Shown: positions 2,889-37,415 of the stretch, piece by piece
Position numbering within the stretch: the first letter of the stretch is position 1
Layout of the letters: every line of letters begins with the position of its first letter
Source: a virus
Reading direction: 5' to 3' (one strand)
Virus record (IMG/VR): IMGVR_UViG_3300033149_002163
Location: 1 to 37,415 of that record
Length of the DNA stretch: 37,415 nt
The notes under the pieces: model-generated
The model's input: the letters and a program-made list of their open reading frames with translations, nothing else
Database searches by the model: none
Told to the model about the DNA's origin: nothing
Position numbers and translations under genes: made by a program

Positions 2889-3110
2889 TTACCATCCACT
2901 CCATTCGTCCTCATCCATTGGCTTTCCATCGTTGAAATGTAACGATACCCACCGGGCTATCCCCTTCCGGCCCTGCCGTACATACTTGGCTGGTACTCTC
3001 TCGCGCCGGTGGTTCCTGTTTATGTCCTGGCCTATGACGTTCGCGTACGGGCGCCCTTTCCGCTTCGACTGCATCGAGCCCCGCGTTACGTCCTTCACAT
3101 ATACCGCCAT
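2889..3110 (-). CDS. Small basic hypothetical protein
   Basis: The product is 73 residues, strongly basic in its first two thirds (KRKGRPYANV, NRNHRRERVP) and acidic at the end (DEDEWSGW), ending two bases before the next gene. The frame stays open far upstream of ATG 3110, but the translation there is Pro/Ser/Arg-rich and lies in a hairpin-rich segment, so I take ATG 3110 as the start. No good ribosome binding site precedes it. ATG 3074, preceded by a weak GGGG, is an alternative. Function unknown; nucleic-acid binding is plausible from the charge. Confidence 0.55.
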   Translation of the reverse strand: MAVYVKDVTRGSMQSKRKGRPYANVIGQDINRNHRRERVPAKYVRQGRKGIARWVSLHFNDGKPMDEDEWSGW

Positions 3111-24279: not shown

Positions 24280-25446
24280 CTACGGCTCTTTGGGTACCTC
24301 TGTATCTCCATCGACCAGCCGACCCGCTAATTTAGCGCCCTCCTTCGCGGCGTTGAGTATTTGCGGTTGTGCTGTCTCAAATGCCTTGATTTCTTTTTCC
24401 GTTGGGGGTTTCGTAGGGGCCCCCGCCTCACTTACAAGGCGGTAGGCTTCGCCTAGTTCCCCCCCGCCCTCGGGTACCGGCTCTGGGTTCGGCTTGGTAG
24501 TTTGGAACTTCCACCGGGGCGGTCCGCACTTGAGGCAGTAATGGCTGTTGGTCCGGGTGCACTTCTCGCACTCGGGCGGTACCTTCTCGGCCTGGGCGGC
24601 CTTTTGGTCCGCCTCTATCGCGTCCAGTATGTCGTGGTCCAGTAACAGCTTCGCTCCGGGGGTGGGTGGTACCCTAGCCACGGTGGGGGTCGGTACTCTC
24701 TTTTTCGCGGGCTTGTCCTTCTCGTACGTCCCATCGAATAGCAGCCAGCCAGGAGTTGCGACCTTGCACTTTGGGCAAGCCGTCGGGGGCGTACCGTCGC
24801 GGGGCCAGTTGTTATGCGCGCCGCACTTCGCGCAATGGGCCTTGCATATGAACTCCACGGGCTCGGCCATCTCAGCCTTAACAGTCGGGCCGCTCTTGGG
24901 CTCGGGTCCGGCCTTCGGCTCGGGCCTCTTGGAATCTCCGGGGGGGCGCCCGTCCACTATCATCCTGGCGATGCGGGGTTGGGTAAGCCCCTTCGGTGGG
25001 CCCAAGCCAAAGGTCGGTATCTCGGCCTTCCTTGCGAGCTTGTGGAACTCCCAGGGGTCCGTCGGATTCGCCATGGTTGGGAGGTAATGCAGGTGCGAGG
25101 CGATGAACTGCAACGTGCCGGCTGTCTTCGCTTCGAGTAGGCGTATGTCGATGTTCTGCTCATCGAAGAGCATGCACATCATACCATACGCGCCATCGAC
25201 CCGGGCCGCCACGTTGTTGGTCATAGCCACCTGCTGTTCCATGTCGGCGTTCCGCGCCTTCAACCATTCGATGCGTACATGGGCCGCCTTCATGTCCATT
25301 TCCAAGATCCATATCCGGCAGTCCCGACATTCACACTCCGGCGAGTGGGGCTTTTGGATGGACCTAGTCATAGGCCCGGAGCCCTCACCGGGGGGGTTCG
25401 CTCTCTTTCGCTCGGGGGCTGGTTGCCCCTTCCCATTGTCTCTCAT
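24280..25446 (-). CDS. Multi-zinc-ribbon protein between terminase and portal
   Basis: The protein is 388 residues. A basic, Pro-rich start is followed by CECRDC (around 38-43), a helical region (ILEMDMKAAHVRIEWLKARN) and then, in the second half, CKAHCAKCG, CPKCK, CEKC and CLKC, making at least two zinc ribbons separated by Pro/Lys-rich linkers. It overlaps the terminase stop (ATGA), and GGAGG precedes ATG 25446. Genes at this position are normally portal. A zinc protein here could help DNA packaging or be an unrelated insertion. No family recognised. Confidence 0.7.
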   Translation of the reverse strand: MRDNGKGQPAPERKRANPPGEGSGPMTRSIQKPHSPECECRDCRIWILEMDMKAAHVRIEWLKARNADMEQQVAMTNNVAARVDGAYGMMCMLFDEQNIDIRLLEAKTAGTLQFIASHLHYLPTMANPTDPWEFHKLARKAEIPTFGLGPPKGLTQPRIARMIVDGRPPGDSKRPEPKAGPEPKSGPTVKAEMAEPVEFICKAHCAKCGAHNNWPRDGTPPTACPKCKVATPGWLLFDGTYEKDKPAKKRVPTPTVARVPPTPGAKLLLDHDILDAIEADQKAAQAEKVPPECEKCTRTNSHYCLKCGPPRWKFQTTKPNPEPVPEGGGELGEAYRLVSEAGAPTKPPTEKEIKAFETAQPQILNAAKEGAKLAGRLVDGDTEVPKEP

Positions 25447-26837
25447 CTTGTAATTCCTCCGATCTCGCCGCGTACGTTTCCTCCCATACCTGATGATGCC
25501 ACGCGGCTGTACACCATCTCGGTCGTATCTAAGAAATCGTTATGGCTGCTGTGCGGGTACATCTCCATCTCGTCGATGTACTCCTTCATAGGGGCGGTAT
25601 CTCGCAGCCCTTCCCAGAACCATATCTCGCCGTCCCTAAACGGTATCTCTAGCGATTCGATACGGCGCGCCTTGTTCTCGGTGTTGTGGAGCGTACGCAC
25701 GGTCATGTACCCTCCTTGCTTGCGTATGTAATCCTCTAGCGGGCGCCGCAACGTCGGCGCGTAATTGTCCTCGTACCATAGCTCCGAAGCCTTGACGATG
25801 CGAGCGAAGCGAAAGAACTTCTCACGGTGGCTGGTCTTCGTAGTCCAGTACGCCAGGGCGATAATGAGTAGCCCCTTCCCGTATTTCTGAGCGCCTATTC
25901 CTACGGTGTACGAGTTGTCGGGATTGTCGGAACTGGCCGGGTCGAAGAACGCGAACACGCGCTGGTTCGGCGGTATGTTCGCCGTGTACCTTATCCACTG
26001 TGTATCTAACAGGCCGCCCTCAGGAGCTATCCGTAGCTGCTGGTAATTCGCCTGCCATTCCCACGCCCTGAGCGACGGCTTCAACTGGGCGAGAATCCGG
26101 TGCATGGGGAAGCGCTCAGGCACCAGCGGAACGTTGCCGGGGCCAACCATGGGAAGCACTAGGGCGTCGAAGCCGCCTATCTCGTCCTCGATGTACTCAT
26201 AGAAGCCATTGGGTAGGAAGCGGTGCCCCTCGATAACGATCTGGCCGCCGGGCTCTAGGCGTTGAAGCCAGGTACCCAGTACGAGCTTGAGCCGCCGGGT
26301 ATCGGCGGGGGATAGCGCCGTGTGAATGTCCACCGGGTCGGAAGCCACTATCTTATTGAGCCGCAAGCTCTCGGCCTGGCCCCCTACGCCCAGGTTGGTT
26401 AGGGTCGGGGTGGGTATGTCGGTTCGGCTCCCAAGCACCCGCAGCGCTTCGGTATTCCATTGTGCCGGATTGTAGAACGCGCCGAAGTCGGCGATTATCC
26501 GGGGATTGTTTCGCAGTATCTCACCGACCCCGCGCATGATGTTCGTGGCCTTCCCTCTTGTCTTACTGAATATTCCGGCCCGGAAGTCGAAGCCGCCAGG
26601 GGAGGGGTATGCCCGCTCCCGGCATATGTCCATGGTAAGCTCGATGGTGGCGCACCGGGTAGTCTTCCCCGAGCCGGGCGGCGCGAGTATCAACTTGTGC
26701 GGTCCCTTCATAGCATCTACTAGGCGGTACCACCCGTAGTATTGATACTGCGGCAGGTACCTCTCGGTGAACGCAGCCGGCGAGGACAATGCGGCGTCCC
26801 TCGCCTTGACCAATTCCGAAAAGTCCTGGAACTGCAC
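25443..26837 (-). CDS. terL: Terminase large subunit
   Basis: The protein is 464 residues from GTG 26837. The ATPase half has the Walker A motif APPGSGKTT (52-60) and a probable Walker B at KIVASDPVD (162-170), in which Ser stands where the first Asp of the common 'DD' is expected. The nuclease half has FAFFDPASSDNPD (about 300) and ends with HNDFLDTTE, giving the acidic residues of the RNase H-like nuclease. Terminase cuts concatemeric DNA and pumps it through the portal. A small subunit is not certain; candidates are the HTH protein ending at 28383 or the coiled-coil protein ending at 23884. Confidence 0.92.
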   Translation of the reverse strand: MQFQDFSELVKARDAALSSPAAFTERYLPQYQYYGWYRLVDAMKGPHKLILAPPGSGKTTRCATIELTMDICRERAYPSPGGFDFRAGIFSKTRGKATNIMRGVGEILRNNPRIIADFGAFYNPAQWNTEALRVLGSRTDIPTPTLTNLGVGGQAESLRLNKIVASDPVDIHTALSPADTRRLKLVLGTWLQRLEPGGQIVIEGHRFLPNGFYEYIEDEIGGFDALVLPMVGPGNVPLVPERFPMHRILAQLKPSLRAWEWQANYQQLRIAPEGGLLDTQWIRYTANIPPNQRVFAFFDPASSDNPDNSYTVGIGAQKYGKGLLIIALAYWTTKTSHREKFFRFARIVKASELWYEDNYAPTLRRPLEDYIRKQGGYMTVRTLHNTENKARRIESLEIPFRDGEIWFWEGLRDTAPMKEYIDEMEMYPHSSHNDFLDTTEMVYSRVASSGMGGNVRGEIGGITR

Positions 26838-27594: not shown

Positions 27595-28386
27595 TCACCC
27601 AAATTTCTCTAGTTCACATTGGTCTTTTTCAAGGCCTGGTGGAAGCCCACCAACCATCGCTCTGAGTTTGATAGGCCACCCTTCGGTGAACTTGTGAAGT
27701 GGACGGCCGCAATAGGTATAGGTGGTCCTCTCCAGGAATGTCCTCGATGGTGCTGCATCTATGAGTTGCCCTTGTATAGCTAGAAGGACGCCAGCGAGTC
27801 GATCCCGCAGTATGCTCGTAGAATAGTCGTGTGGGGTGGGCTCCCGTAGCCATCGGGTATCATCACCATCAACGAGGAGAAGGCCGATGTGATTGCCTTT
27901 GTGGTGGCCTTCCGCATGTCGTTCCACGGTGCGCAGGCTTCTCTCCTTCGGCATTGCGACGGCGACCATGTCAGAGTAATCCATCCTCTTGATGACTTGC
28001 TCGAACACGACCTTTGGTGCGGACAGCTTCAACTCCACGCAGAGAAGAGTGTGATTATCGATGTCTCCCTGGAGAGCAGCGATGTCAAAGAGGTCGTAGG
28101 AATCGCGGTAAACAAAGTACCTAGCATTGGTTAGGAAGCTCCTGGTGGCAGGGACTAGATTCTGTTCTGATGGCTTGGCGCATCCGTATAGCCCCGGCTC
28201 ATCGTAGAGCTTTCCATCAGCAACTGTACCACACTTCTCACATATCCAGCGGGCACCATTGTAAGGGGGTGCCGACCTGTGGCCGAGGATAGCCCCTGAA
28301 GATAGAGGGACGGGTTCACCATCGACAAGTGATTCTTGATGGCGCCATTTGTGCGACCATTGTGGCGGCCCCCAATTTCCATTCAT
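27595..28386 (-). CDS. Zinc-ribbon/PD-(D/E)XK nuclease-like protein
   Basis: The protein is 263 residues. Residues 47-70 carry ICEKCG and YGC, a partial zinc ribbon. Residues 98-150 read YDLFDIAAL, LLCVELKLS (E118, K120) and FEQVIKRMDYSDMVAVAMPK, the D, E-x-K and Q-helix arrangement of PD-(D/E)XK nucleases such as restriction enzymes and resolvases. The remaining 110 residues are unassigned. ATG overlaps the stop of the HTH gene (ATGA). It could cut branched DNA before packaging or attack host DNA. Confidence 0.68.
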   Translation of the reverse strand: MNGNWGPPQWSHKWRHQESLVDGEPVPLSSGAILGHRSAPPYNGARWICEKCGTVADGKLYDEPGLYGCAKPSEQNLVPATRSFLTNARYFVYRDSYDLFDIAALQGDIDNHTLLCVELKLSAPKVVFEQVIKRMDYSDMVAVAMPKERSLRTVERHAEGHHKGNHIGLLLVDGDDTRWLREPTPHDYSTSILRDRLAGVLLAIQGQLIDAAPSRTFLERTTYTYCGRPLHKFTEGWPIKLRAMVGGLPPGLEKDQCELEKFG

Positions 28387-29111
28387 ATCTTCACCCCAAG
28401 GGCGCGTGCGATCTCCCTCCGCTGGGCCTCATTTGCACGCTTGATGAACGCCACGACCATCGGCACGGTGATGCTGTCCACGGTCACCTGCCCCACCTGA
28501 CCGAGCGCCACGGTGCGGATCCTCGCAGCCAGGGACGACTCGTTCGGAACCCGAGACAGTATCTCGTCAATCTGCTCCACCTTGGCGGCCGTCAGGAAGG
28601 AGACCACGTTGCCCACGGCCACCTGGATGTTGGTCTGCGAGAACTGTATGCGGATGGCGCCCTGCCGTGCGACGTAGAGCCGGGCGAACGTGCGGGCCCA
28701 CTTGTTCGCGGCCTCGTGGTTCTCCCCCACGACGATGTCGCGGCCGCACTCGCACCTCACCTTCCCACCTACCGTCTGCGCGAACACCAGGCCGGCGACC
28801 TCCGCCACCTTCCGCAAGGAGGCGTCCCACTCGAAGTCCGATGTCTGGCTCTTGGTGGGTGTGCTACCGTTGGAGGGTGTGGCACCGAGCGCGTCCGAGG
28901 GGCTGGCCGTACCCGGTGCGAGGGCCTGGGCCGCACCCCCTTTGGTCTTGATGCGGCGCAGGTCGCTCTTGACGGTGTTCTTCTTCCATCCCGTAGCTCG
29001 AGCGAGACGCGTATAGCTCCAGTCGGGGTGCTCGATCCATACCTCCATGTAGCGGCGGACACGGTCCAGGAAGGGCGGTGGTGGAGCTGGTGGCTTCTTC
29101 TTCTTGGCCAC
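28383..29111 (-). CDS. HTH protein, candidate small terminase or regulator (GTG start)
   Basis: The protein is 242 residues from GTG 29111. A Lys/Pro-rich tip is followed by a helix-turn-helix (PDWSYTRLARATGWKKNTVK, about 29-49), a Ser/Thr/Pro linker (60-90), a region with CECG (around 120) and a helical C-terminal half. HTH followed by helical oligomerisation segments near terminase would suit a small terminase subunit; a transcription factor is equally possible. The GTG lies just after the stop of the Cys-rich gene, with GGGAG about 12 bases before it, so the start is less secure. Confidence 0.6.
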   Translation of the reverse strand: MAKKKKPPAPPPPFLDRVRRYMEVWIEHPDWSYTRLARATGWKKNTVKSDLRRIKTKGGAAQALAPGTASPSDALGATPSNGSTPTKSQTSDFEWDASLRKVAEVAGLVFAQTVGGKVRCECGRDIVVGENHEAANKWARTFARLYVARQGAIRIQFSQTNIQVAVGNVVSFLTAAKVEQIDEILSRVPNESSLAARIRTVALGQVGQVTVDSITVPMVVAFIKRANEAQRREIARALGVKI

Positions 29112-29116
29112 GGTGG

Positions 29117-29287
29117 TTACGCTCCCTTCGTCCGCTTCGGGCACTTCCGCATGTTGCAACTATCGAGGGGGCACGCTTCGGCGCAGGGGTCGCATACGCA
29201 GTTCTCTCGAACGTCGCAATGTCCGTCATCGTCCGGGCAATTTTCCTGGCACTCGAACGGCTTATCACAGCATACGCATGTCGGCAT
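29117..29287 (-). CDS. Cys-rich mini-protein (12 Cys in 56 residues)
   Basis: Beginning MPTCVCCDKPFECQENC, the product has Cys at 4, 6, 7, 13, 17, 24, 30, 32, 35, 39, 44 and 49. The stretch CVCDPCAEACP recalls part of a 4Fe-4S ferredoxin motif (C-x2-C-x3-C-P), while the first part resembles metallothionein-like clusters. It starts two bases after the stop of the B12-type radical SAM gene and has GGAGG ten bases before ATG 29287. It could be an iron-sulfur electron donor, a zinc protein, or a substrate of the enzyme. Its acidic middle (PDDDG) has no leader-peptide look. Confidence 0.7.
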   Translation of the reverse strand: MPTCVCCDKPFECQENCPDDDGHCDVRENCVCDPCAEACPLDSCNMRKCPKRTKGA

Positions 29288-29289
29288 CT

Positions 29290-30642
29290 TCACATTTCCT
29301 CCATTCCCAGATTATCCAGTAGCCGCTTGTGCATACGCCTTAGCGTTCCAGGTGCGGTGAACGAGCGCAGGTACCAGGCGGGCAGCTCCTCGGCAGGGCT
29401 GTACTGCCGCAGGTACGGCGTGAGGTTGTACTTCTTGCGGAGGGCGCGCACCTTATCGTCAGTCCCCATTGATTTGAGCCGGGTATTGAAAAGGATGGTC
29501 TGTATCAGCCCGTCGCTGTCTTCGGTCGCCCTGTTGATTATTATCTGTTCAAGGTGCGTGTATGCGCTGCTGATTGTCTGGAAGTACACGGCCTGCATGT
29601 TCTCGCCGGTGTAGATGCGCTTTCCCGCCCACTTCCACCATGACTTCTCAATGTTCGCCGGGAGCCATTGACCAGGCGTACACAGTGAAGGCTCGTACGG
29701 TGTGAGCCGCATTACGATGACGACCGGCTTGCCCGTTACGCGGATCTGCGCGACGGTGTCCTTGAAGTCGGTTACGTCTGCGTCGGTTTCGGTCGGGTAT
29801 GAGCCGATGTTGTAGAGGTGTATGATGGTCTTCTTACCCTGCCATCCTTCGCTCAGTAGCTCTACCGCGTCTATGAGGTCTTGATTCTTTATGTGCTTGT
29901 TGAAGGCGAACCGCAGCCGCTCGGAGAACCCGTCGATAGATGATAGGATACCACCCTTGTGTACGTCAGGGTCCCACATCTCGGCCATCTCTTTAAGCGC
30001 AATCTCAGGCTGCGATTTGAGGCCCTTTACGTCGTTGTATAGGCCGACGGCGTTCGGGGTTGATACATACTTGCGTGAGAACGTGTAGTGGCAGAAGTAG
30101 CACCGGTTCGGGCAGCCTATCATCTTCTCAGTTCGGGGGTGGGGCCTGATGTCTAGTTCGTGCGGGTAGAACTCCGGGGCCTGCCGCATCTTTACCGGCG
30201 TTATCTCCGGCAGGTTCATTACATTGTCGAGGGGCGCCGGGTCGCCGTTTACGGCATACTCTAGGATAAGGGGGCCTACCATACCCTCAGCCCGTCCGTA
30301 CACCGCGTAGTCCACGTACGACCGCACCGGCGCCACGTTCTGCATACCGAAGCCGCCCATGATTACCTTGAACGTGCGAGCGCCCGGTTTCCATGTCGGC
30401 TCGGGCATGACGGCGCCTAGGAAATTATAGATGTCCCACTCGCTCGTCAGCGATACCAGTACGATGTCGAACTTGTGCGCTGATTCCGGGGTGCAGAACT
30501 CCATCTCTATGCCGTGGTTGCGCCGCAGATCGTCGATGACCATGTAGGCCCCGACGTTCTCGAAGTAGTCGAACGCCTTTATCGCCTTGCGGGCTCCCTT
30601 CTTTCCCCACTTGAATACGAGGAAGGCAATCCGCTGAGGCAT
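29290..30642 (-). CDS. B12-binding-type radical SAM enzyme
   Basis: The protein is 450 residues from ATG 30642. Residues 1-150 form a Rossmann-type domain with DIVLVSLTSEWD, KVIMGGFGMQNVAPV and VDYAVYGRAEG, the pattern of B12-binding N-terminal domains in class B radical SAM enzymes ('V-x-G-G', then 'V-D-x-x-V-x-G-x-x-E'). No D-x-H-x-x-G cobalamin motif is seen, so cobalamin may be bound base-off or not at all. GCPNRCYFCH (C177, C181, C184) is the C-x3-C-x2-C radical SAM cluster. The rest has TIM-barrel-like strands. Substrate unknown. It is rare cargo for a virus. ATG overlaps the stop of the 53-residue gene (TGATG). Confidence 0.85.
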   Translation of the reverse strand: MPQRIAFLVFKWGKKGARKAIKAFDYFENVGAYMVIDDLRRNHGIEMEFCTPESAHKFDIVLVSLTSEWDIYNFLGAVMPEPTWKPGARTFKVIMGGFGMQNVAPVRSYVDYAVYGRAEGMVGPLILEYAVNGDPAPLDNVMNLPEITPVKMRQAPEFYPHELDIRPHPRTEKMIGCPNRCYFCHYTFSRKYVSTPNAVGLYNDVKGLKSQPEIALKEMAEMWDPDVHKGGILSSIDGFSERLRFAFNKHIKNQDLIDAVELLSEGWQGKKTIIHLYNIGSYPTETDADVTDFKDTVAQIRVTGKPVVIVMRLTPYEPSLCTPGQWLPANIEKSWWKWAGKRIYTGENMQAVYFQTISSAYTHLEQIIINRATEDSDGLIQTILFNTRLKSMGTDDKVRALRKKYNLTPYLRQYSPAEELPAWYLRSFTAPGTLRRMHKRLLDNLGMEEM

Positions 30643-30803
30643 CACAGCACCCGCCCACATTTTGAGCATCCGTGCCCCTTCAATTTGTCCGTAATTATCT
30701 CCTTCGTTTCATCGTCTATGCACCGCTTCGGTCTTCTTATCGTAGCGAACCGGCACGCATGGGGACCGCAGTTAGCGTTGAATGATAAGCATATCCAGCC
30801 CAT
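30642..30803 (-). CDS. Small Cys-containing protein upstream of the radical SAM enzyme
   Basis: The product is 53 residues with six Cys (5, 12, 17, 28, 46, 49), including CGPHACRF and GHGCSKCGRVL, a possible zinc ribbon. AGGTGGTG precedes ATG 30803, and its stop overlaps the radical SAM start, so the two are coupled. With the Cys-rich protein after the enzyme it makes a three-gene set. A basic helix (TIRRPKRC) lies in the middle. Function unknown. Confidence 0.65.
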   Translation of the reverse strand: MGWICLSFNANCGPHACRFATIRRPKRCIDDETKEIITDKLKGHGCSKCGRVL

Positions 30804-30815
30804 CGTCGGCACCAC

Positions 30816-31400
30816 CTACGGCTTGAACTCGGTACCGCACTTAGGGCACGTTACCATGGCACTGATTGAACGATGCGCTGCAACCGGCGTTTCTCCCAGT
30901 TCAAGCTCTCCGGCTTTTATCCGTAGCTCCTTTAAGATGTCGTCCAGGTTGCCGGTTCCGAGTATCTGCAAGTCCTCGGTGTTCGCGGCTGCCTTTGCGC
31001 TTTTCAGCACGGCTGCCAGGTCGATAGTCCAATCACCCGCGATAGCTTGGTTGTTCGCCGTTACCATAGCCAGGTGCGCGGTGTTCTCCTCCCAGTCAAC
31101 TACTCGAACCTCGAACATGCCGCCGTCGGGAGTGGTGAGTACCCTTTTCGTTGATGCCTTGCCGCGCCCCCTCTTGAGCGTGAGCGTTTCCAGCTTGAGC
31201 TTATCGCCGTACCGGCTCCGTAGTTCCTTGACGCGCTGGTGGCCGGTAACGAGTAGGCCGGTGCGACCGTTCCAGGTTATGCCGGAAATGTCGCCGAACA
31301 TATCCATGCTGCGCCCGAGCCCTTCCTGGGATTTCTCGTCTATCTCTCGGGGGTTCACCGGGTCGGGCTTCAAATCGTCGAGCTTGCGTAGTGTCTTCAA
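30816..31400 (-). CDS. ParB-like domain protein with terminal zinc motif (TTG start)
   Basis: The protein is 194 residues from TTG 31400, with GGAGG eight bases before it. Residues 5-60 (DLKPDPVNPREID, EGLGRSMDMFGDISGITWNG, GLLVTGHQRVKEL) match the ParB/sulfiredoxin-type domain: 'N-P-R', 'L-x-x-S-x-x-x-x-G', 'G-H-x-R'. Phage ParB-domain proteins include nucleases, kinase-like ATP-binding proteins and partners of DNA methylases. The terminus CPKCGTEF adds one C-x2-C. No methylase lies beside it. It directly precedes the radical SAM set. Confidence 0.75.
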   Translation of the reverse strand: MKTLRKLDDLKPDPVNPREIDEKSQEGLGRSMDMFGDISGITWNGRTGLLVTGHQRVKELRSRYGDKLKLETLTLKRGRGKASTKRVLTTPDGGMFEVRVVDWEENTAHLAMVTANNQAIAGDWTIDLAAVLKSAKAAANTEDLQILGTGNLDDILKELRIKAGELELGETPVAAHRSISAMVTCPKCGTEFKP

Positions 31401-34176: not shown

Positions 34177-34653
34177 TTATACCAACCATCCTAACTTTAA
34201 ACTAAATATGCTACAAAGTGAGGTCACCGCGTCGATAATGGCTAGGTCAGTTGTAAACATATCTTCCATACCCCGCCGGACCTGGGCCGGGGGGAACTCG
34301 ATAACCCAATACGACGCATCCAGCTCGTGCCAACCTAGGGTGATATCCCATAGTGGCCGTTCCGGGTCGTGTACGATGCGCTCCCATTGGTCATCTAGCC
34401 ACTTGAAACCCTCGCGAACGTATAACGTTTCAACGTCCTCGCATGAGATGTGTTCGTAGTACGGGGATCTCGTAAGCGTTACCTGCCCCACCCATTCGGC
34501 ACCTGGGAAACGCGCTTGCTTGGACCAGGCCGGAACGATGGCGCCCGCGTGGTACTTGATGGCGTGCGTCGGCGGCCACTCCCGGCGGGTAACGGTCTTC
34601 GCACCGGCTACCAGCGGCGGCGTGGTCCACGCGAACGATAACGGCAGCGGCAT
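34177..34653 (-). CDS. ASCH-domain protein (PUA-like fold)
   Basis: The product is 158 residues. The first segment LPLSFAWTTPPLVAGAKT then VTRREW is the hallmark of phage ASCH proteins ('S-x-x-x-T-x-x-x-x-x-G-x-K-x-x-T-R-R-x-W'), followed by EWVGQVTLTRSPYYEHIS and later WVIEFPPA. ASCH domains bind RNA or modified nucleosides, and some are nucleases or amidohydrolases. Set beside a MazG-like enzyme it suggests work on nucleotides or RNA. ATG overlaps the stop of the 31-residue gene (TAATG). Confidence 0.78.
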   Translation of the reverse strand: MPLPLSFAWTTPPLVAGAKTVTRREWPPTHAIKYHAGAIVPAWSKQARFPGAEWVGQVTLTRSPYYEHISCEDVETLYVREGFKWLDDQWERIVHDPERPLWDITLGWHELDASYWVIEFPPAQVRRGMEDMFTTDLAIIDAVTSLCSIFSLKLGWLV

Positions 34654-34748
34654 TATTCCCCCTCCCGCAACTTCGCTATGGTCCGCTCGAATACCTGTAT
34701 CATGTCATCTGTGGTCAGTCGCCGTACAGCGTCCCCGAACTTAGTCAT
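34653..34748 (-). CDS. Tiny protein, 31 residues
   Basis: The product begins MTKFGDAVRRLTTDDMIQVF and continues to a Glu-rich end. A strong GGAGGTG with four bases to ATG 34748 lies inside the end of the MazG-like gene, and its stop overlaps the next ATG (TAATG). It looks like one amphipathic helix. Function unknown; it may serve mainly to couple translation. Confidence 0.55.
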   Translation of the reverse strand: MTKFGDAVRRLTTDDMIQVFERTIAKLREGE

Positions 34749-35250
34749 CGTCCACCTCCGCAGCCCCGAATCCCCCTAGCGTCATTTGGTCCTCATCATC
34801 GGCGGCCTTGATTGAATTAATTAGGCGCGAGTTATCGGCTACCAAGCCATCCCTATCATCTGATTCCATGTAGGCTCGCGGTTTCCCCTCTCGAAAATCT
34901 ACCCAATGCCACCGGCCGGTATCGTCCTTCATTCTCCAAAGGCCCTCCTTTCGTGGATGTTGATGATAACCATGCTGTACCAATATATCAATCCCGCATC
35001 TTGCCACCGCTCGGCGCTTCGTATCGTTATCAAGTATGAAGCTCGCCAACAATGCAACGTCCACGGCTTCCTCGGTGGCCTTCGTAACGTCGCCCTCCTT
35101 GAGTGCTTGGAGTAGTTCGATTGCCTCATTCCCCATAAGCCCGGCCAGGTCCTTCTCTGGCATCTGCCTCCATGTTAAGCCCTTTTCAGGGTGGTGTCGT
35201 TCATAGGTCTGGCGCATCTTGTCTGCGAACAATCCTACTGGAGTTGTCAT
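34741..35250 (-). CDS. MazG-like NTP pyrophosphohydrolase
   Basis: The product is 169 residues. Residues 41-68 read NEAIELLQALKEGDV then ATEEAVDVALLASF, giving E42-x2-E45 and E61-x2-D64, the metal-binding layout of all-alpha NTP pyrophosphohydrolases (MazG/dUTPase-2 superfamily). These cleave NTP or dNTP to the monophosphate, cleaning the pool or lowering alarmones. The C-terminal 90 residues (WRMKDDTGRWHWVDFREGKP) are an extra unassigned domain with an acidic tail. ATG overlaps the stop of the Spo11-like gene (ATGA). Confidence 0.72.
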   Translation of the reverse strand: MTTPVGLFADKMRQTYERHHPEKGLTWRQMPEKDLAGLMGNEAIELLQALKEGDVTKATEEAVDVALLASFILDNDTKRRAVARCGIDILVQHGYHQHPRKEGLWRMKDDTGRWHWVDFREGKPRAYMESDDRDGLVADNSRLINSIKAADDEDQMTLGGFGAAEVDDD

Positions 35251-36437
35251 TCGTCATCAACCTCAACGCCGTCCATATCTGGCGCCTCTCCATCCTTCCA
35301 CGTTAGGACCAGTACGCCGTCTACGATCTCGTATTTCTCAACGCAGTTATCTATGATGTAATTAAAGGTGTCAGTGGGTAGCCGCATCAATGACATATCA
35401 AACGCGCCAAGTGCTTTTTCCGCACGCCGCCGTAGGGTGCCGTTCGATATGTCCTTCCGCGTATCGTCTATCGTACCGTCATCTTGTAGCTCCTTCGCTT
35501 TTTGCTCGAACTGGTCGGGGATGTCGCCTAGAAATACTGCCTCGAACTGCCACTTAACTAGCATAGGTAGTTCGTTCCAGCTTTGCTCCCGTAACCAGTC
35601 GTATAACTTCTTCTCGGGGCAATGCCGCTCTAGTGCGGCGGCCAATACTTGCCGCCGTCGCTCGCCCCCTACGGCCTGTAATTCGAGCCCGTACGGGCCG
35701 CCTATCCCGTACCTTTCTACCCACTCATTATCATAGTCGCACTTGACCGGTATTGGGAACTTCAAAACATCAAGGCGCCCCGTTTCTACGTCACGAGGTA
35801 GGATACCAACGCGCTCGCTTTCAATGTCCATGCCGAGCTGTTCCATCCGGCGGCATAGGTCCTCGAATATCTTGAACCCGAAGGCGTCGTAATCGGTCAT
35901 ACCCAATACAAGGAAGCGGGTATCGAGTAGGTCTACTCCCTCTATTTCAAGTAGACCTATCAACTTTTCGAGTAGCGCAGTTGCCTCGAACCCGCTGCCC
36001 TCTATCATCCATATACGATAGGCATCTGCCACGGCCTGTATCTTGTTGAAGCTCGCGTGGTCTTCAACGAATACAATTACTTCCTCGAAGGGGCCATTGG
36101 CATCTACATGGTTTCGGGTATCATCCACTATCCCGAGATCGGAGTATCTAAGTTCTCCGTCAAGTACCATCTCGGATAGTACCGCCGAAAGGGCCTGTGA
36201 TGCCTTACGGTTCCACCATCCCGCACGCTTCGACTTTTCCGGCTCGAAGCGGAGCAATGGTATCTTAACCACCTCGTACCAAAACTCCCGAAGGGTTCTG
36301 TCTTCACTCGGCGCACCTGCCGCGTTCTCGTTCAAGATAATGGCTTTCAGAAATGCGGTGCGGCTTGGGAACTGTTCTTGCAGTTCCGCAGTATCCCACG
36401 TATGGAAATCTTCGCTCCCATCTTCTAGTTCTCTCAT
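35247..36437 (-). CDS. Spo11/topoisomerase VI A-like protein (Mini-A-like)
   Basis: The protein is 396 residues. TLREFWYEVV (48-57) is the counterpart of the catalytic-tyrosine motif of Top6A/Spo11, with Y54 the candidate nucleophile, followed by an LSEMVLDGELRYSDLGI wing region. The Toprim part has VIVFVEDHASF (E125), then MIEGSGF, and LGMTDYDAFGFKI (D182, D184), then GGPYGLELQAV. Toprim and tyrosine together identify the type IIB topoisomerase A-subunit fold. No B subunit (ATPase) is in the genome, as in orphan 'Mini-A' proteins of mobile elements. It could nick or break viral DNA for replication or recombination. AGGAGG precedes ATG 36437. Confidence 0.75.
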   Translation of the reverse strand: MRELEDGSEDFHTWDTAELQEQFPSRTAFLKAIILNENAAGAPSEDRTLREFWYEVVKIPLLRFEPEKSKRAGWWNRKASQALSAVLSEMVLDGELRYSDLGIVDDTRNHVDANGPFEEVIVFVEDHASFNKIQAVADAYRIWMIEGSGFEATALLEKLIGLLEIEGVDLLDTRFLVLGMTDYDAFGFKIFEDLCRRMEQLGMDIESERVGILPRDVETGRLDVLKFPIPVKCDYDNEWVERYGIGGPYGLELQAVGGERRRQVLAAALERHCPEKKLYDWLREQSWNELPMLVKWQFEAVFLGDIPDQFEQKAKELQDDGTIDDTRKDISNGTLRRRAEKALGAFDMSLMRLPTDTFNYIIDNCVEKYEIVDGVLVLTWKDGEAPDMDGVEVDDE

Positions 36438-36439
36438 TG

Positions 36440-37276
36440 TTATTCCTCCTTCAAATGTTTAAGGTTCGCCTTCAGTTTGATGTTGATACTTTCTGGCAGC
36501 TTGGCTATGAGCGCTTCCACTTCGGCCCGCGTCGGTTCGGGTAGTGAAATATCCCGGCGGCTGTTCGCGCCGATGCTTACGAACTTCGGCCCGATACCTG
36601 CGAGCATATCCCGGAACGGTAATAGGTCGAACTGCATTACCGGCTCGACCGTTACGCTCAAGCTGTAATCCGTACCTCGCCGTCGGCTATGCTCTCGCAC
36701 CTGCCGATTGTACGCGGGGTGGCTCAGTAGGTGGCCGTAGGCGGCCTTGGACATCGGGCCGGTATCTTCAGCCCGCCCTATCTTGTGATGCGTTATACGA
36801 GCCCGTAACGCCCGCATAGCCGTCGCCCTGGCTATCGGGTGCGGCTCATTATTTATCTCCGGGTAGGCTCGGTTGCTTTCGATGGTCGTGCAAAAGACCA
36901 CGCGCGGCGGGTACTCCCATAGCTCGAAGTCCTGGAAGCGCCACGGGTTCGCAGTCTGGAATAGGTAGGTGTTCAGCGGGTAGTCTTGGCAATGGTCAAG
37001 CACCTGCTGTATGATGTCGTGCGGTACGATCTGCGCGAATAGGTCCCCGCAGTTCTGCACGAATATGGTACGACCGCATCCCCAGTTATGCAGCTCCTTG
37101 CGTACCAGTCGCGGCGTTTTGTCCTGGTGATACTTCAACGTCAGCGCGGGGGCCGCGAACTTCTCAATGTAACAGTACACGCATCGGTGGCCGAACGTGT
37201 GGCAGTTCATCGCCACGGGGTTGATTGTGTGCGTTACCCACTCGTACATATTTCCGGCTGACTTGTTCAGTGGCAT
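36440..37276 (-). CDS. DUF5131 (phage Gp37/Gp68)-type radical-SAM-like protein
   Basis: The protein is 278 residues from ATG 37276, preceded by GGTGAACAC; TTG 37291 is a poorer start. Near the N-terminus are INPVAMNC and HRCVYCYIEKF, giving C25-x6-C32-x2-C35, the spacing of the Gp37/Gp68 (DUF5131) family ('N-P-x-x-x-C-x6-C-x2-C-Y') and not of classical C-x3-C-x2-C enzymes. It continues with barrel-like strands (RTIFVQNCGDLFA, TYLFQTANPWRF, VVFCTTIESN, YSLSVTVEPVMQF, FVSIGANSRRD). The reaction is unknown for the family. It precedes the Spo11-like gene by two bases. Confidence 0.8.
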   Translation of the reverse strand: MPLNKSAGNMYEWVTHTINPVAMNCHTFGHRCVYCYIEKFAAPALTLKYHQDKTPRLVRKELHNWGCGRTIFVQNCGDLFAQIVPHDIIQQVLDHCQDYPLNTYLFQTANPWRFQDFELWEYPPRVVFCTTIESNRAYPEINNEPHPIARATAMRALRARITHHKIGRAEDTGPMSKAAYGHLLSHPAYNRQVREHSRRRGTDYSLSVTVEPVMQFDLLPFRDMLAGIGPKFVSIGANSRRDISLPEPTRAEVEALIAKLPESINIKLKANLKHLKEE

Positions 37277-37280
37277 GTGT

Positions 37281-37415
37281 TCACCGTTCAAATAGTCTTA
37301 AAGCGTCGGCGGGATGTACGAATATCGTGCCCTCTGGAATAGCGGTATGTTGTAATATTTTCGCGCCACGGAACTCTCCGAACGTTGACGATTCATGTTT
37401 GAGTTGTTCGATACC
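37281..37415 (-). CDS. Hypothetical protein, 3' part of gene spanning the contig junction
   Basis: This is the end of the 105-residue gene that starts at 297 on the circular map. The unique part added here is six codons (L-R-L-F-E-R) and TGA at 37281-37283; the rest repeats bases 1-114. The TGA belongs to the GGTGA site of the next gene. Confidence 0.85.
   Translation of the reverse strand, partial: GIEQLKHESSTFGEFRGAKILQHTAIPEGTIFVHPADALRLFER
37302..37415. repeat. Terminal direct repeat, right copy
   Basis: These 114 bases repeat 1-114 without a mismatch and mark the circular closure of the contig. Confidence 0.95.

Follow-up and report, generated by a model that had tools for sequence, protein, structure and literature searches.

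The stretch of DNA analyzed here (the window) comprises 37,415 bases of an IMG/VR virus record, with most genes on the minus strand. ORFs annotated as tailed-virus genes included those for the large terminase subunit (TerL; phrog_38, 5e-42), a portal protein, a head protease, and a tape measure protein. One ORF was predicted to encode a class-B-type radical SAM enzyme (rSAM), the start codon of which overlaps the stop codon of an upstream mini-ORF as TGATG (Table 1). The original prediction had placed a virus-borne enzyme of this type between two Cys-rich mini-proteins. The coordinates, lengths, Cys motif (C177-x3-C181-x2-C184), Cys counts (6 and 12), and junctions were all re-read as first described, and the TerL, portal, and tape measure genes of the window bore out the viral setting. 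A ParB-like gene farther upstream, absent from the original prediction, is the conserved partner of the rSAM.

Elsewhere on the minus strand, positions 36440 to 37291 encode a DUF5131 protein (2.4e-11) with several cysteines in its N-terminal region, possibly a second metal-cluster enzyme. Positions 34177 to 36437 contain a phrog_11705 protein (1.8e-19), a MazG-like candidate, and a further ORF that has a DYDAFG motif and resembles topoisomerases very weakly (0.077).

TABLE 1 Predicted features around the radical SAM gene of the window
Feature	Positions	Strand	Characteristics
Large terminase subunit (TerL)	25443..26837	-	phrog_38, 5.3e-42
HTH-containing ORF, candidate small terminase	28383..29159	-	Start uncertain; Sigma70_r4_2/HTH weak; phrog_141, 0.22; upstream of TerL
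Mini-ORF 2	29117..29287	-	56 aa, 12 Cys; ATG at 29287; good RBS (GGAGG); 2-base gap after rSAM stop
Class-B-type radical SAM enzyme (rSAM), predicted	29290..30642	-	450 aa; start ATG, 30640-30642; stop, 29290-29292; cobalamin-binding-type domain, ~1-135; SAM/[4Fe-4S] core, C177/C181/C184; helical C-terminal region
Mini-ORF 1	30642..30803	-	53 aa, 6 Cys; ATG at 30803; GTG at 30815 as alternative start
ParB-fold protein	30816..31400	-	194 aa; TTG start; strong SD (AAGGAGGT); C-terminal CPKCGTEFKP tail; phrog_620 ParB-like, 1.3e-15

Family assignment and predicted structure of the enzyme

As a single sequence, the window rSAM gave weak matches to Pfam Radical_SAM (8.6e-4, with a score below the gathering score), Radical_SAM_N2 (9.7e-4), and TIGR03960 (4.4e-4), as well as to TIGR04013 and TIGR04014. 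The family alignment, with good coverage for residues 1 to 350, comprised 11 members (the window protein and ten others, with the identical L009 and L011 counted once). All 11 of these members matched Radical_SAM and TIGR03960 (best, 1.6e-10), Pfam B12-binding was matched in 8 (best, 7e-5), and TIGR04014 was matched weakly in 10; C177, C181, and C184 were invariant across all aligned relatives. The radical SAM assignment is weak from the window sequence alone and firm for the family, with the predicted fold in support. The window rSAM lies outside two curated families, scoring 18.9 bits against a cutoff of 462.3 for TIGR03960 and 13.9 bits against a cutoff of 360 for TIGR04014, to which MgmA belongs, and it matched no defense family in PADLOC.

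Two AlphaFold models of the rSAM were of middling confidence (pLDDT, 69 and 72; pTM, 0.73 to 0.74), which was lowest around the Cys motif. Their top fold matches were cobalamin-dependent radical SAM enzymes, namely, MgmA followed by CysS, TsrM, OxsB, and TokK, and MiaB/RimO-kind radical SAM folds were also among the matches (Z, ~8). MgmA was the best match for both models (Z, 12.2; 297 to 304 residues; 6 to 7 Å, with 6.9 Å over 297 residues); the whole-length rmsd is high, and the domain arrangement of the rSAM is therefore uncertain. Residues 1 to 133 matched the cobalamin domain of 2-hydroxyisobutyryl-CoA mutase (Z, 10.0; 3.0 Å; 115 residues). The predicted N-terminal domain is of the cobalamin-binding type, as in class B enzymes, and the rSAM would be expected to use cobalamin.

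Viral relatives of the enzyme

Two designed scans yielded 11 viral rSAM relatives (28 to 40% identity), all metagenomic and mostly on short contigs. The first scan used an alignment forcing GCP[NHY]RCxFC, in which invented filler rows flanked the motif and served pattern choice alone, and its candidates were checked by tblastn against the real rSAM protein; the second was built from real relatives. Single-protein scans with the rSAM and TerL over viral and genome collections gave no matches, nor did exact DNA patterns for the Cys motif. No rSAM relative was found in 394 genomes of three phyla, and the hosts may belong to other phyla.

Three genome matches (L005 to L007) were rejected as family members; they are chromosomal enzymes, either of the TIGR03960 type or general B12 radical SAM proteins. 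A match in a record labeled as a phage (MW495066.1, "Microcystis phage MaAM05") was likewise not taken to be viral; its TIGR03960-type gene lies among trpS, mqnC, and ispG, and the stretch looks bacterial-chromosomal.

Phylogenetically, the viral rSAMs formed one clade (support, 100/100) on a long stem, separate from chromosomal TIGR03960-type enzymes. Values of dN for the closer pairs were 0.07 to 0.32, and dS was mostly saturated, leaving one computable dN/dS (0.042); given the low dN, the rSAM is under strong constraint by purifying selection.

A ParB-like partner gene

A gene for a CPKCG-tailed ParB-like protein was found 5′ of the rSAM gene in all 10 loci with enough sequence (the window, L003, L004, L008, L010, L011, L012, L014, L015, and L016); in the L009 fragment, only the ParB tail was visible. 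The family profile of this protein matched ParB/Spo0J structures (9.6e-10), and an arginine was invariant in the GxxR stretch corresponding to Box-II, so that both the ParB fold and the Box-II arginine are represented. In a published survey, phage ParB-CTPase folds often occur as fusions with DNA-methyltransferase domains, and their NTP binding depends on the Box-II arginine (PMC12704722).

The spacing between the ParB-like and rSAM genes was -14 to +2 nt in eight loci, often with an overlap (e.g., ATGCAATCTGA). Inserts were present in the window (173 nt) and in L010 (143 nt), each with a small Cys-containing ORF. These two ORFs (53 and 54 aa) are unrelated to each other, that of L010 (positions 2921 to 3085; 54 codons, 5 Cys) occupying the same junction as mini-ORF 1 of the window. 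Since the mini-proteins were not found in the related records and the ParB-like gene was found in 10 of 10 loci, the conserved unit, as judged from sequence comparison, is a two-gene cassette of ParB-like protein and rSAM, with the mini-proteins outside its core.

The ParB-rSAM pair adjoins TerL genes of different families (phrog_3717/2, 15, 9, and 38); because these families differ, the pair moves between unrelated viruses yet keeps its place. In one relative, L004, a separate N6/N4 DNA methylase lies upstream of the pair.

ParB-like genes in other phages

The place beside the terminase is shared by the window, the rSAM relatives, and ParB-like genes of other phages (L019, L023, L024, and L032 to L034). 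Twelve records with the same ParB-like domain (isolated phages), picked for variety and not at random, were inspected, and 11 of them contained a known or candidate DNA-modifying enzyme. The ParB-like domain was fused to an N6/N4-MTase in five (Javan630, NatCom_3357, NatCom_34063, IMGVR 517045, and Funu2), one of which also has a neighboring C5 methylase; the fusion in IMGVR 517045 (L020) was called N6/N4 by sequence likeness to L019 and L024. It was followed by a C5-MTase in two records (PaBG and the Erwinia phage) and by a TET-associated glycosyltransferase (TAGT; 1e-32) in one (phi jlb1). A PAPS_reduct domain was fused or adjacent to it in three (Methanoculleus virus L4768, Bacillus 055SW001, and Riemerella CRP2), and these PAPS-reductase domains may act in DNA modification. 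The remaining record, Arthrobacter phage Abba, had a ParB-like gene without a recognized partner. Genes annotated as encoding DNA methylases made up 26 of the 40 listed tblastn matches, one of which (L4768) is really a PAPS-reductase fusion, and a ParB-like gene adjoins a DNA methyltransferase in V-YDF132 (PMC9413028). Outside the rSAM family, both the slot and the ParB domain thus accompany DNA-modifying enzymes.

Several annotations in these records differed from the domains found. Gene gp05 of Methanoculleus virus L4768 (L023:1242-2486) is labeled a "DNA modification methylase," yet its only Pfam match is to PAPS reductase (4e-14); this domain lies behind the ParB-like domain and adjoins the terminase. 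Viral "cysH" genes that are assigned to sulfur metabolism in another study (PMC9723712) may in part be DNA-modification genes. In Lactobacillus phage phi jlb1 (L032:2501-4076), the ParB-like ORF overlaps the TAGT ORF (PF20691, 1e-32), labeled hypothetical and directly 5′ of the terminase.

Two further arrangements were observed. An intein-like insert (PF14890, 2e-8) splits the C5 cytosine methylase by the ParB-like gene of Erwinia phage pEa_SNUABM_23 (L018:3647-5776). In Bacillus phage 055SW001 (L021:3001-6291), a ParB-like gene, a PAPS reductase, a methyltransferase, and a second ParB-like gene are clustered, possibly as a multienzyme DNA-modification cluster.

Proposed function and alternative readings

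Other phages hold DNA-modifying enzymes in this slot, and the rSAM therefore probably performs an undescribed chemistry that alters viral DNA. Our preferred reading, which we consider evenly balanced between right and wrong, is that in this cassette beside the terminase the ParB-like protein brings a cobalamin-type rSAM to viral DNA, where an unreactive carbon is modified. The ParB-fold protein most likely binds nucleotide and DNA and would serve as an NTP-dependent DNA-loading or targeting partner, recruiting the rSAM onto viral DNA ahead of packaging or while it proceeds. The rSAM would then use its [4Fe-4S] cluster and the cobalamin of its N-terminal domain on an unreactive carbon in either a base or a sugar of the DNA. 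The reaction could be methylation or another modification, C-methylation being probable, as in most of the fold relatives, and the product may shield the genome from host nucleases or mark it.

A DNA-modifying role suggested by the slot is an analogy, an argument of guilt by association, and the extra methylase of L004, the partnerless gene of Abba, and the nonrandom choice of records count against it. We know of no class B radical SAM enzyme that acts on DNA, and the enzymes structurally closest to the rSAM have proteins or small molecules as substrates. Radical SAM/B12 chemistry on DNA, of which no earlier instance is known to us, is conceivable here as a first case but somewhat doubtful.

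It is unlikely, if still worth serious consideration, that the rSAM instead C-methylates a protein of the host or virus (e.g., ParB, terminase, or capsid), as MgmA does. The first rank of MgmA among the fold matches of both models and the weak TIGR04014 matches in 10 of 11 members point that way, whereas the score of the window rSAM is far under the TIGR04014 cutoff and the slot and partner indicate DNA. The tail of the ParB-like protein was rejected as the substrate; a CPxC tail is present also beside C5 methylases (PaBG and the Erwinia phage) and is therefore not a substrate dedicated to radical SAM enzymes.

We consider it decidedly improbable that the substrates are free dNTPs, later built into viral DNA, or tRNA rather than polymer DNA. 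This alternative is consistent with the MiaB/RimO-kind fold matches and with the MazG-like pyrophosphohydrolase candidate in the window (PRA-PH, 0.0085), but no polymerase or dNTP-pathway gene accompanied the pair among the loci read, and the N6/N4 and C5 methylases found in the same slot work on polymer DNA.

Cys-rich mini-ORFs

Mini-ORF 2 is exceptional in composition, with 12 Cys in 56 residues against 1.1% Cys window-wide (binomial, ~1e-12). The 6-Cys content of mini-ORF 1 is unremarkable, as 6 to 9 Cys (~10%) are reached by other small ORFs in the window, noncoding-looking plus-strand ORFs among them. Its coding signal was not above that of wrong frames (codon score, 0.087 per codon; wrong-frame 95th percentile, 0.189), and mini-ORF 1 may or may not be a gene. 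Neither mini-protein was matched in the 11 related records, a search of limited sensitivity given short queries, fragmentary records, and no positive control. At the junctions of the relatives, the ParB-like gene overlaps or abuts the rSAM gene, and L010 has its unrelated insert instead.

The original prediction had counted both mini-proteins as part of the enzyme's unit, one that was to be abandoned if homologues occurred widely without them. With 11 relatives lacking a match to either, and neither present at the relatives' junctions, the proposed set is not supported as a functional unit; a compact modification system probably does exist, the core of which does not include the mini-proteins. 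That the rSAM works with the two of them, as Fe-S electron donor or modified peptide, is very unlikely. The tight packing of the ORFs, the composition and good RBS of mini-ORF 2, and the weak resemblance of the 12-Cys protein to PsaC (0.019) are in keeping with such a partnership. Against it stand, besides the missing matches and the coding signal of mini-ORF 1, the spacing C-x-C-x2-C-x3-C-P of the 12-Cys protein in place of the ferredoxin spacing C-x2-C-x2-C-x3-C-P. A conserved small precursor peptide beside the enzyme, as in RiPP systems, was likewise not matched in the 11 related records or at their junctions. The mini-proteins are probably local additions, and the 12-Cys protein may bind metal or an Fe-S cluster but has no evident tie to the enzyme.

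Relation to known systems and implications

Viral auxiliary genes are reported to include radical SAM genes (PMC9723712), but it is hardly credible that the rSAM is a generic host-derived gene boosting host metabolism, with its neighbors there by chance, given a single distinct viral clade under purifying selection, a ParB partner and slot that stay constant, and the lack of a close cellular relative among 394 genomes from three phyla. Several known systems resemble the pair in part. Genes for B12-type radical SAM enzymes are on record for viruses of methanogenic and methanotrophic archaea; these are likewise virus borne and of the cobalamin type, and in the accessible portion of that study they are noted by Cys content and number, with no ParB pairing, slot, or mechanism (PMC9723712). 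As to the initial view that no such viral set had been described, viral genes for the enzyme type are thus already known, but no description of a ParB-radical SAM pair was found in the open-access literature searched.

Phages with a ParB-CTPase and a DNA methyltransferase (PMC12704722; Streptococcus phage Javan630 and Pseudomonas phage PaBG) share the ParB-like domain with an enzyme fused or adjacent, the CPxC tail in some, and a terminase nearby in several; the enzyme there is a classical methylase, whereas here it is a cobalamin-type radical SAM enzyme, and the main text of that survey does not contain the word "radical." MgmA (methyl-coenzyme M reductase glutamine C-methylase; TIGR04014; PDB 9ccb) has the same order of cobalamin domain and radical SAM core and a similar length. 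It differs in sequence (~15 to 18% identity, with the window rSAM below the curated score) and in gene neighborhood, and there are no grounds for expecting the same substrate. The uncharacterized, chromosomal TIGR03960 family is the best profile match; PxETxxD and TPxQW motifs occur in both groups, and their C-terminal regions are alike, whereas the viral proteins are shorter and form a separate clade, the window rSAM scoring hundreds of bits under the cutoff. ParB-methylase fusions are already known; the ParB-rSAM pairing, not found in the literature searched, has a chance of being categorically novel if radical chemistry on DNA is shown.

If the preferred reading is correct, viruses of largely uncultured hosts would apply B12 radical chemistry to their own DNA, a type of modification without a known signature. 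The comparison also suggests a rule by which a ParB-like domain near the terminase marks a DNA-modification slot, and this rule may be usable to find new DNA-modifying enzymes in viral genomes.
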